12,063 nucleotides of DNA from Burkholderiaceae bacterium (GTDB taxonomy: Bacteria > Pseudomonadota > Gammaproteobacteria > Burkholderiales > Burkholderiaceae_D), in contig JAISIS010000028.1 of the NCBI GenBank assembly GCA_031261905.1, forward strand, positions 1 through 12,063. The letters are read 5' to 3'. The translations under genes and the position numbers were made by a program. Numbering within the stretch: the first letter of the stretch is position 1; every line of letters begins with the position of its first letter. Under the pieces are notes generated by a model, which worked only from the letters and a program-made list of their open reading frames with translations, made no database searches and was not told where the DNA came from. This document shows positions 4,228 to 12,063 of this stretch, in pieces.

Positions 4228-5799
4228 ATGGGCGGAAAATTTCGCAACATCATACTTATAGGTCTTGGCATGCTGGCAGGCATTGCAGCTTCCATGCAAT
4301 TCTCCGCGATGGCGCAAAAGCCTGTCGCCCCGCTTCCCCTTGATGAACTCAGACAGTTGGCTGACGTTTTTGGCCTTATCAAGACAGACTATGTGGAATC
4401 GGTTGACGATAAAAAGCTGCTGACTGAAGCCATTTCCGGCATGGTATCCTCGCTGGACCCGCATTCGGCCTATCTGGATAAAAAAGCGCTGAAAGAACTG
4501 AAGGAAGGCACACAGGGGCGCTTTGGCGGCCTCGGCATTGAAGTCGGGACGGAAGATGGCTTCATCAAGGTCATTTCGCCTATCGAGGATACCCCGGCCT
4601 ACCGCGCGGGCATCAAGCCGGGCGACCTGATTACCCGTCTGGATGGCGTATCCGTCAAGGATATGACGCTGGACGAGGCTGTTAAAAGGATGCGCGGAGA
4701 ACCCAATACAAAAATTACCCTGACCATCGTACGCAAAAACGAGAACAAGCCTCTGACAGTAACCATCGTCCGTGAGGAAATCCGCATCAGGAGCGTCAAA
4801 TCCAAAATGATCGAACCGGGTTACGGCTGGCTCCGGATCGCGCAGTTCCAGGAACCCACCGTGGAAGATTTAGTCAAACGAATCAATGCGCTCTATGCCC
4901 AATCCCCCAATATGAAGGGGCTGGTCCTGGACCTGCGCAATGATCCTGGCGGCATTCTGCCTGGCGCTATCGGTGTGGCATCCATTTTCCTGCCGAAGGA
5001 TCTTGTTGTCGTTTCCACCAACGGGCAGCTCCCGGAATCCAAGGCGACTTTCTACTCCCGCCCCGAATTTTATGCCGGGCGTCATCTGGGCGATCCGTTG
5101 GCAAAACTGCCTCCACAGGTTAAAACCGTTCCTGTTGTCGTGCTGGTCAACGTCGGCTCCGCTTCCGCATCTGAAATCGTGGCGGGAGCCTTGCAGGATC
5201 ACAAGCGGGCCACTCTTCTCGGCACCAAGACATTTGGTAAAGGTTCCGTACAAACCGTACGGCAGATTTCACAGGATACCGCCGTCAAGCTGACAACCGC
5301 CCGCTATTACACGCCAAGTGGCCGTTCCATCCAGGCAAAAGGCATTGTGCCCGATCTTATGGTAGATGAAACGCCCGAAGGAGATGGTTACAACAGTATG
5401 CGCCTGCGGGAAGCCGATCTGTTCAAACACCTTTCCGATGATCCTGCTCATGCGAATGACGAAGCGCAACGCGCCAGTGAAGAAGAGGAGCAGCGCCTTT
5501 TGAGCGGTGCGAAGAAATACAAGCCGCTTGAATACGGCAGCAAGGATGATTTCCAGTTGATGCAGGCCCTCAATTACCTGAAAGGGCAGCCGGTTAAATT
5601 ATCCAGGGCAGCCACCGATGAAAAGAAGAATAGCGCCTCATCCGCTAAATCAGGTACCGATAAGGAGCACGGCATGAAAGGTACGGAGAAAAACTCCGGC
5701 AAGGAAAATGAATGCCCGCAAATCCCGGGATGGCAATGCTCCGACAAACCCGCCCCGGGCAAAGATACCGGCAAAAAAACCGGGAAAAGCAAACCCTGA
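4228..5799 (+). CDS. ctpA: Carboxyl-terminal processing protease (S41 family, PDZ domain)
   Basis: A 523-aa serine protease anchored in or exported across the inner membrane that trims or degrades periplasmic proteins. The N-terminus (about residues 7-29) is a signal peptide or anchor. It is followed by the CtpA cap with 'DYVESVDDKKLLTEAISGM', a PDZ domain (about 96-180, with GRFGGLGIEV and AGIKPGD) and the S41 core. The catalytic dyad is visible: Ser313 in GSASASEI and Lys338 in TFGKGSVQ, with Gln342 at the conserved position, in the same spacing as known CtpA/Prc enzymes. In related systems, CtpA-type proteases control peptidoglycan hydrolases, which fits its coupling to envC. After about residue 455 the sequence becomes a Lys/Ser/Gly-rich tail with two cysteines (CPQIPGWQC) that is not part of the usual core. 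Confidence 0.96.
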   Translation: MGGKFRNIILIGLGMLAGIAASMQFSAMAQKPVAPLPLDELRQLADVFGLIKTDYVESVDDKKLLTEAISGMVSSLDPHSAYLDKKALKELKEGTQGRFGGLGIEVGTEDGFIKVISPIEDTPAYRAGIKPGDLITRLDGVSVKDMTLDEAVKRMRGEPNTKITLTIVRKNENKPLTVTIVREEIRIRSVKSKMIEPGYGWLRIAQFQEPTVEDLVKRINALYAQSPNMKGLVLDLRNDPGGILPGAIGVASIFLPKDLVVVSTNGQLPESKATFYSRPEFYAGRHLGDPLAKLPPQVKTVPVVVLVNVGSASASEIVAGALQDHKRATLLGTKTFGKGSVQTVRQISQDTAVKLTTARYYTPSGRSIQAKGIVPDLMVDETPEGDGYNSMRLREADLFKHLSDDPAHANDEAQRASEEEEQRLLSGAKKYKPLEYGSKDDFQLMQALNYLKGQPVKLSRAATDEKKNSASSAKSGTDKEHGMKGTEKNSGKENECPQIPGWQCSDKPAPGKDTGKKTGKSKP

Positions 5800-8516: not shown

Positions 8517-8545
8517 ATCATAACCTTGATGCCGCTTCCTGTCTA
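8517..8545 (-). promoter_or_regulatory. Sigma-70-type promoter of trpB-pyrE
   Basis: On the minus strand, TAGACA (8545-8540) and TATGAT (8522-8517) are separated by exactly 17 bases. Each box matches five of six consensus positions. The -35 box overlaps the TAG stop codon of ampG. Transcription would begin near 8510, giving a leader of roughly 38 bases with no room for a trp attenuator, and I see no Trp-rich leader peptide. An imperfectly explained inverted repeat (AGACAGG / CCTGTCT at 8538-8544 and 8505-8511) brackets the -10 region and could be an operator, though this is weak. Confidence 0.7.
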
Positions 8546-9787
8546 ATCATTGATTTCGGCATTCCATGGCGCAACTTTGGGCAACAGCAGCATACCGGGC
8601 AAGGCCAGCAGGAAACACAGGTTAAAAAACAGGAACCATCCCGTTTGATCCACAATAAAACCTGCGGAGGCATTGATGAAGGTACGCGGCACCGCAGCGA
8701 GACTGGTAAACAGCGCGTACTGCGTGGCGCTGTAACGTTTGTCCGTTGTCCGTGCAATATAGGCGACAAACGCAGCCGTACCCAGGCCAACGCCCAGGGC
8801 CTCAAAACCGATCACAAAGGCCAGCAGGTAGGGGTCGGCTCCCCGCAGGGATATCCACGAAAAACCGAGGATGGAAAGGGCCTGCACCACCCCATACAGC
8901 CACAGGGCGCGATTGATGCCCAGACGGATCATCCATATGCCACCCAGCATCCCGCCCACCAGGCTGGCCCAGAAGCCGGTTGTTTTGGCGATGACGCCTA
9001 TCTGGGTCATGGAAAAACCCAGGTCAAGGTAAAATTTGGTCGCCAGCGCCGTTGCCAGGCTGTCCCCCAGCTTGTACAGAAAAATGAAGCTCAACACCAA
9101 CAGCGCGTTTTTCCAGCCGGAACGGGCGATAAATTCCTGAAAAGGCAAAATCACCGCCTCGCGCAAATTGGCGGGTGGCTGACCGTATATTTCCGGCTCC
9201 TTGACGAGCAGCGTACAAATAAATCCCGGAATCATGAAGGCGGCGGTAATCCAGAAAACCCATTGCCAGCTCATCTGGTCGGCCAGTATCAGGGAAAGCG
9301 CCCCCGGCACCATCCCCGCAACCCGGTAGGCGTTCACATGGATGGCGCTGCCAAGCCCCTGCTCGTTATCCGGCAGCAATTCCCGGCGGTAAGCATCCAC
9401 CGCAATATCCTGGCTGGAAGACAAAAAAGCTACCAGCGCGCACAGCAGGCCAACCAGCGGAAGCTGGCGCAACGGGTCAAGCATTCCCATCACACCAATG
9501 GAAAGAAAGAGCGCAAGTTGCGTCACGGCCATCCAGCCCCGGCGGCGGCCCATCACGCCCAGGCTGAAGCGATCCATCAGCGGCGACCATAAAAATTTCC
9601 AGGTATAAGGAAACATCACCAGCGCAAACAGGCCCAGCGATTTGACATTCAGCCCGGATTTCGCCAGCCAGGCCTGAAGCAGGTTCAGCAAAATGAAAAG
9701 CGGAAGCCCTGAGGAAAAGCCGATAAAAACACAAATCAGCATGCGCCGCTGAAACGCACTGGGCCAGGTGCGTTCGGGCATGGTCAT
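8543..9787 (-). CDS. ampG: AmpG-family muropeptide permease (MFS/PAT family)
   Basis: Inner-membrane permease of the major facilitator superfamily, likely importing GlcNAc-anhydroMurNAc muropeptides for cell-wall recycling. The 414-aa protein is hydrophobic throughout, with about 12 membrane segments. Family markers include 'FSSGLPLFILLNLLQAWL' (24-41), 'GVMGRRRGWM' after the second segment (77-86), and SSQDIAVDAYRRE (124-136), the characteristic AmpG motif. ATG 9787 overlaps the metW stop as ATGA, so translation is probably coupled. An alternative ATG at 9781 is two codons later. Neither has a Shine-Dalgarno. It is the third gene of the metX-metW transcript. The exact substrate is inferred from family membership. 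No ampC/ampR is nearby. Confidence 0.92.
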   Translation of the reverse strand: MTMPERTWPSAFQRRMLICVFIGFSSGLPLFILLNLLQAWLAKSGLNVKSLGLFALVMFPYTWKFLWSPLMDRFSLGVMGRRRGWMAVTQLALFLSIGVMGMLDPLRQLPLVGLLCALVAFLSSSQDIAVDAYRRELLPDNEQGLGSAIHVNAYRVAGMVPGALSLILADQMSWQWVFWITAAFMIPGFICTLLVKEPEIYGQPPANLREAVILPFQEFIARSGWKNALLVLSFIFLYKLGDSLATALATKFYLDLGFSMTQIGVIAKTTGFWASLVGGMLGGIWMIRLGINRALWLYGVVQALSILGFSWISLRGADPYLLAFVIGFEALGVGLGTAAFVAYIARTTDKRYSATQYALFTSLAAVPRTFINASAGFIVDQTGWFLFFNLCFLLALPGMLLLPKVAPWNAEIND

Positions 9788-10398
9788 CTGCCGGAAAGAG
9801 GAGAACGCTTTTTCAGACGGAAAACCGCCAGCGTGCCGCGCCAGTTCCGCAAAAAGCTGACCGGTTCGCCATAGCGCAGCGCCACGCAATCGGTAACCAT
9901 CAGGCCAACCTGGTTGGCCAGTTCTTCAAAATCGCTAATGGTGGCGCAACGCAAATTGGGCGTGTCATACCATGCATAGGGCAACTCCCGCGTCACCGGC
10001 ATCCGCCCGGTCAGTAAGGTCAGGCGGTTTTGCCAGTAGGCAAAGTTGGGAAAAGAAACTATTGCCTCATTACCAACCCTGGCAATATCACGCAGCAAAT
10101 CTTCCACATTTCTCATCATCTGCAGGGCGGAAAGGAAAAGCACCGTATCAAACGCGTTGTCCGCAAACAGATGCAGGCCTTTTTCCAGATCATGCTGAAT
10201 CACTGCAACGCCCCGGCTAACGCAACCGGGAATCTTGTCGTCATCAATATCAACACCATAACCGGTACACCCTTTTGTCAGCCATAGATGTTCCAGCATC
10301 GCGCCATCGCCACACCCCAGATCCAGCACATGCGCCTTTTCCGGCACCCAGTTGGCAATGAATGCCAGATCAGCCCGGAGTTCCCGTAATTTCTGCAT
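9784..10398 (-). CDS. metW: Methionine biosynthesis protein MetW (SAM-dependent methyltransferase fold)
   Basis: A 204-aa MetW, the usual partner of MetX in proteobacteria. It has a class I methyltransferase fold with the SAM-binding motif VLDLGCGDG (24-32), the acidic strand end 'GYGVDID' (46-52), and 'ISDFEELANQVG' and 'NWRGTLAVFRL' near the C-terminus as in the family. The known role is to support MetX activity in methionine synthesis; a methyl acceptor is not established to my knowledge. ATG 10398 has a strong GGAGGA Shine-Dalgarno about 9 bases upstream, within the metX 3' end. It starts 2 bp after the metX TAA and overlaps ampG by 4 bp. Confidence 0.95.
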   Translation of the reverse strand: MQKLRELRADLAFIANWVPEKAHVLDLGCGDGAMLEHLWLTKGCTGYGVDIDDDKIPGCVSRGVAVIQHDLEKGLHLFADNAFDTVLFLSALQMMRNVEDLLRDIARVGNEAIVSFPNFAYWQNRLTLLTGRMPVTRELPYAWYDTPNLRCATISDFEELANQVGLMVTDCVALRYGEPVSFLRNWRGTLAVFRLKKRSPLSGR

Positions 10399-10400
10399 GC

Positions 10401-11543
10401 TTACTGTCCTCCCTGCGCTTTTATTTCAACCCAGATCCTGTCGAAATAAGCGCGAACCAGATCATGGTAACGCTCGTCTGTCAGCAAAAAGGCGTCATGC
10501 CCATGCGGTGCGTCTATATCGGCATAGGTTACCTGCCGCCGGTTATCCACCAGCGCCTGAACGATCGCCTGGCTGGCTTCGGACGAGAAACGCCAGTCTG
10601 TCGTAAACGAAACCAGCAGGAATTTAGCCTGTGTCCCGGCCAACGCACGGGTCAGGTCGCCATCATAGGGCGCAGCCGGATCAAAATAATCCAGCGCTCG
10701 CGTAATCAACAGATACGTATTGGCGTCAAAATAAGATGAAAATTTGTCCCCTTGGTAATGCAGGTAGGATTCAATCTCGAACTCTACGCCAAACCCGAAA
10801 AGATATTGCCCCTGGCGCAGTTCCCGGCCAAATTTTTCCGACATGTCCGCATTGGAAAGGTAGGTGATATGCCCGATCATCCGCGCGACGCGCAAGCCAT
10901 TCTTTGGTACCACATCATGGGAATAAAAATCCCCGCCATGGAAATTCGGGTCGGAAAGGATCGCCTGGCGCGCCACATCATTGAACGCGATATTCTGCGC
11001 GGTCAGTTTGGCGGTAGAGGCAATGGCGACGCAATGTTCCAGCCTGTCGGGAAACATCATGCTCCACGCCAGCGCCTGCATACCGCCCAGAGAGCCTCCC
11101 ATGACAGCGGCAAATTTCCCAATCCCCAGGGCATCAGCCAAGCGCGCCTGGGCGCGCACCCAGTCTTCTACCGTGACGACCGGAAAGCGGTTCCCGTATG
11201 GCTTATTGGTTTCCGGGTTAATGTGCATCGGCCCGGTGGAGCCAAAACACGATCCCAGGTTATTGATGCCGATGACAAAGAAACGATTGGTATCAACCGG
11301 TTTGCCAGGGCCGACCATATTGTCCCACCAGCCGATGTTCCTGGGCTGGTCAGCATAATAGCCCGCCACATGGTGTGAGGCATTCAGCGCGTGGCAAATC
11401 AACACCGCGTTGGATTTGTCCGCGTTCAGTTCCCCGTATGTTTCATAAACCAGCGTGTAATCGGCAATCAGCGCACCGCTTTGCAAACGCAGTGGCTCAT
11501 CAAAATGGATTGAGCGGGCCGTTACCGTTCCAACAGAAGTCAT
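10401..11543 (-). CDS. metX: Homoserine O-acyltransferase MetX
   Basis: Cytosolic alpha/beta-hydrolase-fold enzyme that acylates homoserine, the first committed step of methionine synthesis. The 380-aa product has the nucleophile elbow GGSLGGMQ with Ser151, Asp316 in TTDWRFS, and His349 in HGHDAFL as the expected catalytic triad. It also has the MetX signature '[12 protein letters not shown]' (94-105). MetX enzymes paired with MetW are often succinyltransferases rather than acetyltransferases. The acyl donor cannot be read securely from this sequence. ATG 11543 has a GGGA-type site about 9 bases upstream. The gene opens the metX-metW-ampG transcript and is preceded by a SAM-II-type riboswitch and terminator, which implies repression by S-adenosylmethionine. 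Confidence 0.96.
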
Positions 11544-11592: not shown

Positions 11593-11635
11593 AAAAAAAC
11601 AAGCCCGAAAGCAGCAGATCTGCCGGGCTTGTTTT
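11593..11635 (-). terminator. Intrinsic terminator in the metX leader (riboswitch expression platform)
   Basis: A perfect 12-bp stem (arms 11635-11624 and 11607-11596) encloses a 16-base loop containing the palindrome GCAGATCTGC. The stem is GC-rich in its inner half and is followed on the minus strand by a run of seven T. It lies directly after the SAM-II-like aptamer and 50 bases before metX, so it should decide whether metX-metW-ampG is transcribed. It also ends read-through from ptsI. The plus-strand reading ends in only four T after the stem, so it is weaker that way. Confidence 0.88.
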
Positions 11636-11638
11636 CAA

Positions 11639-11710
11639 GCTCGCTTTAGCCGCATTTATTTCGGGTTACTCCCCTGCGCCCGCAAGCTGAATCATTCAAA
11701 TCGGCGCAAT
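11639..11710 (-). ncRNA. SAM-II-type (SAM_alpha) riboswitch aptamer upstream of metX
   Basis: Cis-acting RNA expected to bind S-adenosylmethionine. On the minus strand, stem P1 is TGCGCC (11708-11703) paired with GGCGCA (11680-11675). Loop 1 contains the conserved GATTTGA, and GCTTGC (11687-11682) in this loop pairs as a pseudoknot with GCGAGC (11644-11639), including one G-U pair. Between them is AATAAATGCGGCTAAAGCG, which resembles the conserved 3' part (AUAAAUG..GCUAAA) of SAM-II aptamers. An extra small hairpin (GGG-AGTAA-CCC, about 11673-11663) is inserted after P1. The position before metX is a classical SAM-II location. The identification rests on remembered consensus, not on a covariance-model search. 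Confidence 0.85.
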
Positions 11711-11716
11711 ATCACA

Positions 11717-11745
11717 AGCATAACGAAGTCGTTCGTCAGCGTCAA
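11717..11745 (-). promoter_or_regulatory. Sigma-70-type promoter of metX-metW-ampG
   Basis: On the minus strand, TTGACG (11745-11740; five of six) and TATGCT (11722-11717; four of six) are 17 bases apart. The predicted transcript start is around 11710-11712, which is exactly where the riboswitch aptamer begins. The aptamer is therefore the first thing transcribed. The promoter lies entirely in the ptsI-metX gap. Confidence 0.78.
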
Positions 11746-11766
11746 ACGGCGACCATCAAACCCTCC

Positions 11767-12063
11767 TTATCCCACCGGAGGCAACTTCCTGATTTTCTCC
11801 ACCGCCCGCGTAATGGCCTCCTGTTCGTAAAGACCCAGCAGCCTTTTCACTTTCGGCACCAATTGTTTCACATTGGCGTTGAGAATCTCCTGCTTGATGG
11901 TCAGCATCTGCGTGGAATGCATGGAAAACTCCCGCAACCCCATTCCCAGAAGCAAGCGGGTCATGGCAGGGTCTCCAGCCAGCTCGCCGCAAACGGATAC
12001 CGGCAATCCCGCCTTTGCGCCAGCCCGGATCGCCATGGAAATCATAGTCAACACCGCAGGGTG
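11767..12063 (-). CDS. ptsI: PTS enzyme I (phosphoenolpyruvate-protein phosphotransferase), C-terminal end
   Basis: The last 98 residues of enzyme I, which takes phosphate from phosphoenolpyruvate and passes it to HPr. The segment 'HPAVL' at the window edge, then 'GLPVSVCGELAGDPAMTRLLLGMGLREFSM', matches the PEP-binding domain. It includes the conserved active-site cysteine in VCGELAGD, followed by the C-terminal helices. The gene runs off the window edge, so the phosphohistidine domain is not seen. The paralogue PtsP would carry a GAF domain upstream and cannot be fully excluded from this end alone. The gene ends 22 bp before the -35 box of the metX promoter, with no terminator of its own before that. 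Confidence 0.9.
   Translation of the reverse strand, partial: HPAVLTMISMAIRAGAKAGLPVSVCGELAGDPAMTRLLLGMGLREFSMHSTQMLTIKQEILNANVKQLVPKVKRLLGLYEQEAITRAVEKIRKLPPVG

Follow-up and report, generated by a model that had tools for sequence, protein, structure and literature searches.

Does the leader in front of metX on the minus strand of the window, the whole 12,063-nt stretch of Burkholderiaceae DNA analysed here, belong to the SAM-II class of riboswitches, and does it act through the hairpin that follows it? An earlier note on this DNA had pointed to yes in both cases.

The metX leader and its genes

All three genes behind the leader matched NCBIfam models above their cut-offs, in the order metX-metW-ampG that the earlier note had given (Table 1). 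The start codon of ampG is uncertain, the listed open reading frame (8543..9889) overlapping metW, and the metX transcript is probably common to metW and ampG. Upstream of the promoter, an open reading frame at the edge of the window (11756-12061, minus strand) resembles by eye the C-terminus of a PEP-utilising phosphotransferase. The nearest named relatives by MetX identity are Oxalobacteraceae (Undibacterium 79%, Noviherbaspirillum 77%), in agreement with the note's view of the source as a beta-proteobacterium, and suggest that the window's family is Oxalobacteraceae-like. A MAG titled Alistipes senegalensis (L088) gave an 89% MetX match; it carries a beta-proteobacterial metX and leader, and its title looks wrong. 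Elsewhere in the window, 5097-5293 on the minus strand gave a sub-threshold match to Rickettsia sRNA47 (RF02800; 35 bits, cut-off 60, E 4.7e-6), which lies opposite an S41 peptidase gene (4228-5799) and perhaps reflects common coding sequence rather than an sRNA.

A sigma-70-type promoter (TTGACG-N17-TATGCT, 11745-11717, minus strand) is located upstream of the metX leader. The promoter pattern TTGAC-N16-18-(T/G)AnnnT was present in 27 of 32 leaders and lay 13-15 nt upstream of GATTTG in 22 of these. Because of this spacing, and because the window promoter ends 8 nt before P1, the note was fair in placing the start of the aptamer at the predicted +1. The P1 stem, GATTTGA and the pseudoknot partners were likewise all present as the note had described them for the minus strand. 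The folding energy of the window leader had a z of -2.7, with 3/200 shuffles folding equally well.

Table 1. Positions of the leader elements and genes in the window
Feature	Position	Strand	Remarks
Promoter -35 hexamer TTGACG	11740..11745	-	Basis: leader sequence and TTGAC-N16-18-(T/G)AnnnT in relatives
Promoter -10 hexamer TATGCT	11717..11722	-	17-nt spacer; 8 nt to P1
SAM-II-type aptamer by model R1	11638..11711	-	64 bits; window copy part of model
P1 5' strand TGCGCC	11703..11708	-	
Third strand GATTTGA	11696..11702	-	GATTTG invariant in alignment A1, 50/50
P2 5' strand CAGCTTGC	11682..11689	-	Includes CTTGC 11686-11682, pseudoknot partner
P1 3' strand GGCGCA	11675..11680	-	Pairs with TGCGCC
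P3 hairpin GGG-GAGTAA-CCC, insert in L3	11663..11674	-	-5.4 kcal/mol; 0/200 mononucleotide shuffles equally stable
3' core AAATAAATGCGGCTAAAGCG	11642..11661	-	P2 3' strand GCTAA 11650-11646; GCTAAAG 11650-11644
Linker GCGAGCTTG-AAAA-CAAGC	11627..11644	-	Can pair with CAGCTTGC or with terminator 5' arm
Terminator hairpin	11596..11635	-	12-bp basal stem, -21.9 kcal/mol
Seven T	11593..11599	-	First four are the last four bases of the terminator stem
metX, homoserine O-succinyltransferase-type	10401..11543	-	NCBIfam NF047916, 665.6 bits, cut-off 560
metW	9784..10398	-	NCBIfam TIGR02081, 234.1 bits, cut-off 189.5
ampG-family transporter	8543..9889	-	NCBIfam TIGR00901, 494.3 bits, cut-off 350

Relation to the SAM-II class

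The pocket sequence of SAM-II (GAUUU / UUGC / GCUAA) is present in the window. An alignment (A1) was made of 50 of 62 elements, in all 50 of which GATTTG, TTGC and GCTAA are invariant, the sequences having been selected with patterns that contain parts of these motifs. A model (R1) was built from the 50 leaders, window copy included, and scored 64 bits on the window (E 6.9e-17), which is itself among the 50 sequences. Of 57 metX leader loci, 34 have the core according to R1, counting the window's own and a weak match of 22.4 bits in L052, and the other 23 gave no match; by regular expression, 31-32 of the 57 leaders carry it. A search of genome contigs gave at least 588 relatives; among the top 80 of these, 57 had an R1 match. 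Across the phylum, 64 of 398 genomes matched, 24 of them from the window's order, its own genome counted, 25 from the rest of the class and 15 from other classes.

P1 is paired in 97.3% of the cells of A1 and shows changes on both sides in two of its six pairs (20/50 sequences at one pair, 3/50 at another). The P2 pseudoknot core is 100% paired and never varies, so covariation there is neutral. For the whole structure we counted 41 double-changed cells compared to 25.5 in shuffles, and 0/500 shuffles reached 41; neither the count of double-change pairs (5; reached in 93/500 shuffles) nor that of extra pair types (19; 139/500) stood out. Sliding the partners gave less pairing and a lower covariation score, a slide of +1 keeping 5 double-change pairs and 22 pair types.

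We take the pocket residues of SAM-V to be transferable to SAM-II numbering, in which the third strand GATTTGA (11696..11702, minus strand) presumably contains U10-U12. With this assumed mapping, all SAM-contacting pocket residues described for SAM-V and SAM-II are represented in the window core, and SAM is the probable ligand of the window element. According to the pocket description in PMC6061858, U47 and U8 of SAM-V contact the adenine, U20:A48.U9 the sulfonium and A50 the amino-acid end, contacts that its authors extend to SAM-II.

Two features bear on the fit to the standard SAM-II layout. P2a, taken as four pairs, looks weak, with 60% of its cells paired and chiefly at C36-G94 and U35-A95; a passage in PMC6061858 gives a 5-bp P2a extension for 60% of SAM-II. 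Furthermore, the region from P1 to the AAAT of L3 contains a P3-type hairpin in 19 of the 26 leaders from the window's family, a hairpin being counted if no more than 5% of 200 mononucleotide shuffles matched it. Among the remaining seven, L007 and L008 have a weaker hairpin, L010, L019, L026 and L027 have none, and L004 was misparsed. SAM-V has a P3 after P1 and SAM-II is described without one in PMC6061858; the P3-type hairpin of the window's family resembles that of SAM-V. A second hairpin, between the third strand and P2, was seen in L011, L012, L014, L015, L020, L021, L031 and L037.

A covariance search with RF00521 (SAM_alpha), which the earlier note had put forward as a check, did not give a significant match: the window returned a partial hit of 12.2 bits (E 1.8, positions 10-42 of 79, cut-off 36), and its whole own genome gave 0 matches at E 0.001. 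This failure alone would count against SAM-II, but P3-less relatives match RF00521 over its full length. A search of 10 relatives' loci (E up to 1) gave four full-length matches, none over the cut-off, at L019 (30.1 bits), L026 (27.5), L010 (23.8) and L027 (22.9), all without a P3-type hairpin. The window plausibly fails because P3 is inserted in the loop and P2a is weak. Among 250 genomes of the order, RF00521 matched 116, with 47 over the cut-off; its 14 control genomes gave no match. For SAM-V and the SAM-II long-loops families, no match was listed for the window in Rfam at E up to 10. Rfam matches to Thr_leader, Trp_leader and McaS at the leader were rejected, since all scored under the cut-offs and were due to the terminator. 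Together with the core in 34 of the 57 metX leader loci, the RF00521 matches in relatives support the SAM-II-type aptamer that had been proposed. Judged by its sequence, the leader is most likely an ordinary, slightly unusual SAM-II-class riboswitch with a terminator, missed by the standard model and carrying family-specific insertions. RF00521 would then under-report SAM-II in this beta-proteobacterial order, apparently via loop insertions.

Could the leader instead be an element outside SAM-II that reads another ligand? The obvious candidate is the 'metXZ' terminator-antiterminator element, presented as new and beta-proteobacterial by Leyn et al. 2014 in their account of it (PMC4239095), which places it before metXW/metZ and describes six conserved regions, a pseudoknot and a terminator; SAM_alpha is there found only in Rhizobiales and Rhodobacterales. 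However, RF00521 finds the element widely in the order and the pocket residues are conserved. Moreover, metXZ is very probably the window element itself, with the same genes, group and layout when likened to its text description. We therefore regard a non-SAM-II element as improbable.

The other strand has a claimant in Rfam, since RF02424 (Bp2_287 sRNA) matches the window at 11598-11734 on the plus strand with 20.1 bits, implying a plus-strand RNA. This match is under the cut-off of 70, the U run becomes an A run on the plus strand, and the promoter and pocket both lie on the minus strand. RF02424 gave 52 listed matches in 250 genomes, of which one exceeded the cut-off; 29 lie opposite an RF00521 match and 0 on the same strand as one. 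Of the other matches, 19 of 20 fetched lie opposite an R1 match, the exception (G210) having no R1 match, and the match in G016 lies opposite a metX leader. In total, 49 of the 52 are thus opposite a SAM-II-type element (G065 and G224 are outside the count), and a plus-strand RNA is very improbable. RF02424 is named after Bp2_Cand287 of PMC3521395, where that candidate is located upstream of methionine genes and a cis-acting element is suggested. Both metXZ and RF02424 look like SAM-II-type riboswitches, the latter modelled on the wrong strand; a statement to this effect for either was not found in the open-access papers searched. If so, three separately used names (SAM-II, 'metXZ' and RF02424) are united and a strand error in RF02424 is indicated.

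The terminator and the direction of control

In the window, AAAACAAGCCCG (11635-11624) and CGGGCTTGTTTT (11607-11596) pair at 12/12 positions around a 16-nt loop, and the metX start codon lies 49 nt past the U run. The earlier note had described a 12-bp hairpin with seven T. The twelve pairs and the seven T are both there, but four T were counted twice: they belong to the stem, which leaves either 12 bp and three T or 8 bp and seven T. This hairpin, with its 16-nt loop, was missing from the output of a simple terminator scan. Of 122 parsed stretches from window and relatives, six that were misparsed or false were removed manually (L004, L005, L009, L049, L064 and L078, the first two from the window's own genus) and two failed to parse, leaving 114. 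Within 120 nt of the core, 98 of 111 of these leaders have a hairpin directly before TTTT (all hairpin lengths, -11 kcal/mol or better), compared to 12.4 expected from dinucleotide shuffles; a stricter count (even hairpin lengths only, -12 kcal/mol) gave 51/111 against 3.9 expected. The 12-pair stem with its U run and its counterparts among the relatives bear out an intrinsic terminator before metX.

We examined whether the aptamer can pair with the terminator in the 103 of the 114 stretches that have a hairpin (L088, L094 and L137 among them misparsed); the sequences are related, so the tests are not independent. Pairing between the aptamer strand around CAGCUUGCGGGC and the whole terminator hairpin, with stem-preserving shuffles as controls, reached p <=0.05 in 46/103 leaders and 0.01 in 20/103. 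When only the terminator 5' arm and loop were used in the duplex test, the mean z was -0.95 and 28/103 leaders had values under -1.645; in 61/103, the aptamer strand ranked first among the tiled windows. In L020, L021 and L026, the 5' arm and loop are by eye near complements of the aptamer strand. With the whole hairpin, p <=0.05 was reached by only 8 of the 24 leaders assigned to the window's family, and pairing in the window is weak (p 0.067). As a background check, 18 of 86 terminators of the sister genome G001 pair as well with the window aptamer, and 11 of 86 pair equally well with G001's own leader. These results suggest an antiterminator across the wider leader set, not convincingly in the window.

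In the unconstrained fold of the window, CAGCUUGC pairs with GCGAGCUUG just behind the core and the terminator is still formed. As the terminator persists while CAGCTTGC pairs with the linker GCGAGCTTG, equilibrium folding alone fails to explain a switch, and control in the window may be kinetic. The same minimum-energy fold would suit a real aptamer followed by a constitutive attenuator or a leader-sRNA terminator that SAM does not govern, with control at RNA stability or translation. Such control has been proposed for S. meliloti metA, where the section on this gene in PMC9373788 describes a terminator behind the SAM-II riboswitch for which no effect of SAM was predicted. The strong conservation of the terminator in the 111 leaders and the above-shuffle complementarity between aptamer and terminator across the wider set argue against this reading, which we consider unlikely. 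Direct occlusion by P2 is also unlikely because of the distance to the start codon, and a translational switch was set aside given that distance and the terminator.

We favour, with a probability of roughly 0.8, a SAM-II-class riboswitch with a transcription-termination platform in the metX-metW(-ampG) leader, by which SAM switches the genes off. Transcription would begin at or beside P1. When SAM is plentiful, it would be bound in the triplex of GAUUUGA, CUUGC and GCUAAAG, locking P1 and the pseudoknot P2; the GC-rich hairpin with its U run could then form, and RNA polymerase would halt before metX. When SAM is scarce, the strands of P1 and P2 would be free to pair with the linker or the terminator hairpin, allowing readthrough. 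The probable OFF direction is that expected of a biosynthetic gene behind a SAM-II-class element. The earlier note had set the terminator layout against a SAM-II class that it described as mainly translational; this contrast was not borne out, the majority of SAM-II being transcriptional according to a statement in Huang and Lilley 2018 (PMC6061858). The leader offers a compact transcriptional SAM-II system for in vitro work.

A metK variant and comparison with known systems

The window element precedes metX-metW, in keeping with the methionine/SAM genes expected behind SAM-II. Behind ten such elements that were scanned, we found metK (3), MetN-like genes (2), metX, metH (truncated by the locus end and under its cut-off), two sulfhydrylase types (O-succinylhomoserine sulfhydrylase and a PRK05939-type sulfhydrylase relative) and one gene without assignment. 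Among 40 relatives searched, R1 located a second element, before metK, in 11 genomes, all from the window's family, and all 11 copies read GAGTTAA where SAM-II has GATTT. A pattern search requiring GAGTTAA matched 6 of 8 genomes of the family and none of the remaining 242 in the order. Since one of these six had already been counted with the 11, the total is 16 genomes, in all of which the element lies before metK. The metK start codon is 52-65 nt downstream, and the element (for example L198:301-375, plus strand; G001:C1:1758695-1758754) is followed by a GTCGCAG...CTGCGAC-type hairpin. Four loci scanned (L198, L204, L207 and L209) gave no Rfam match to the element at E up to 1. The outgroup L217 retains GATTTAA before metK.

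In the assumed numbering, the change is U10 to G in 16/16 copies, and the SAM-V equivalent is U8. The pocket description in PMC6061858 has U8 touching the adenine-reading U47. A tentative and rather doubtful proposal is that the family carries two paralogous SAM-II-type switches, at metX and at metK, of which the G10 form may respond to a different ligand or recognise SAM with a changed specificity. If true, the family would be a natural experiment in SAM-II pocket evolution, and the pocket change in the metK element is directly testable.

Several further elements were noted. A SAH riboswitch (RF01057, over the cut-off) is present on the metK strand in L204, L209 and L217, downstream of metK in L204 and L217. 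Another family in the window's class (f55) has SAM-II-like elements (L218, L220-L222, L224-L228, L230, L231 and L234) that read GATTTAA or GATTTAG ... ACTTGCGGGGCGC ... CCGCTAAAGCGCTGG, one with AATTGC, and precede short frames of ~100-120 aa; the L218 frame, the sole one scanned, had no NCBIfam match. A third family of this class (f60) has SAM-II-like elements with a hairpin that looks by eye like a terminator (L219, L223, L229, L232 and L235), and in L235, the sole one scanned, the element precedes a MetN-like ABC ATPase gene. Tandem R1 matches occur in L278, L265 and L270, 37, 47 and 110 nt apart; tandem SAM-II elements are known from a report in PMC9481103.

SAM-II is commonest in Alpha-, Beta- and Gammaproteobacteria according to the summary by Meyer et al. 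2009 (PMC2704228). The window leader shares with SAM-II as modelled in RF00521 the P1 stem, the GATTTG third strand, the CTTGC/GCTAA pseudoknot core, the methionine genes and a downstream terminator, and differs in its P3 in L3, in having no clear P2a and in its score of 12.2 bits. With SAM-V, as portrayed in PMC6061858, it shares the H-type pseudoknot, the pocket and a P3 after P1 (GGG-GAGTAA-CCC in the window). In contrast, SAM-V is translational and comes from marine bacteria; in the window a terminator follows and the start codon lies well beyond it, instead of a Shine-Dalgarno sequence in or beside the pseudoknot. The metX switch of the window's family thus has a SAM-V-like P3 yet a transcription terminator. 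The metXZ element has the same beta-proteobacterial setting before metXW/metZ, with pseudoknot and terminator, and the account by Leyn et al. (PMC4239095) neither recognises it as SAM-II nor proposes a ligand. Bp2_287 (RF02424) shares the type of locus, whereas the complementary strand is modelled and filed as an sRNA. A further related system is S. meliloti metZ, for which Scheuer et al. 2022 (PMC9373788) describe a SAM-II riboswitch with a predicted SAM-dependent terminator; that system is alphaproteobacterial, and its description there mentions no P3.
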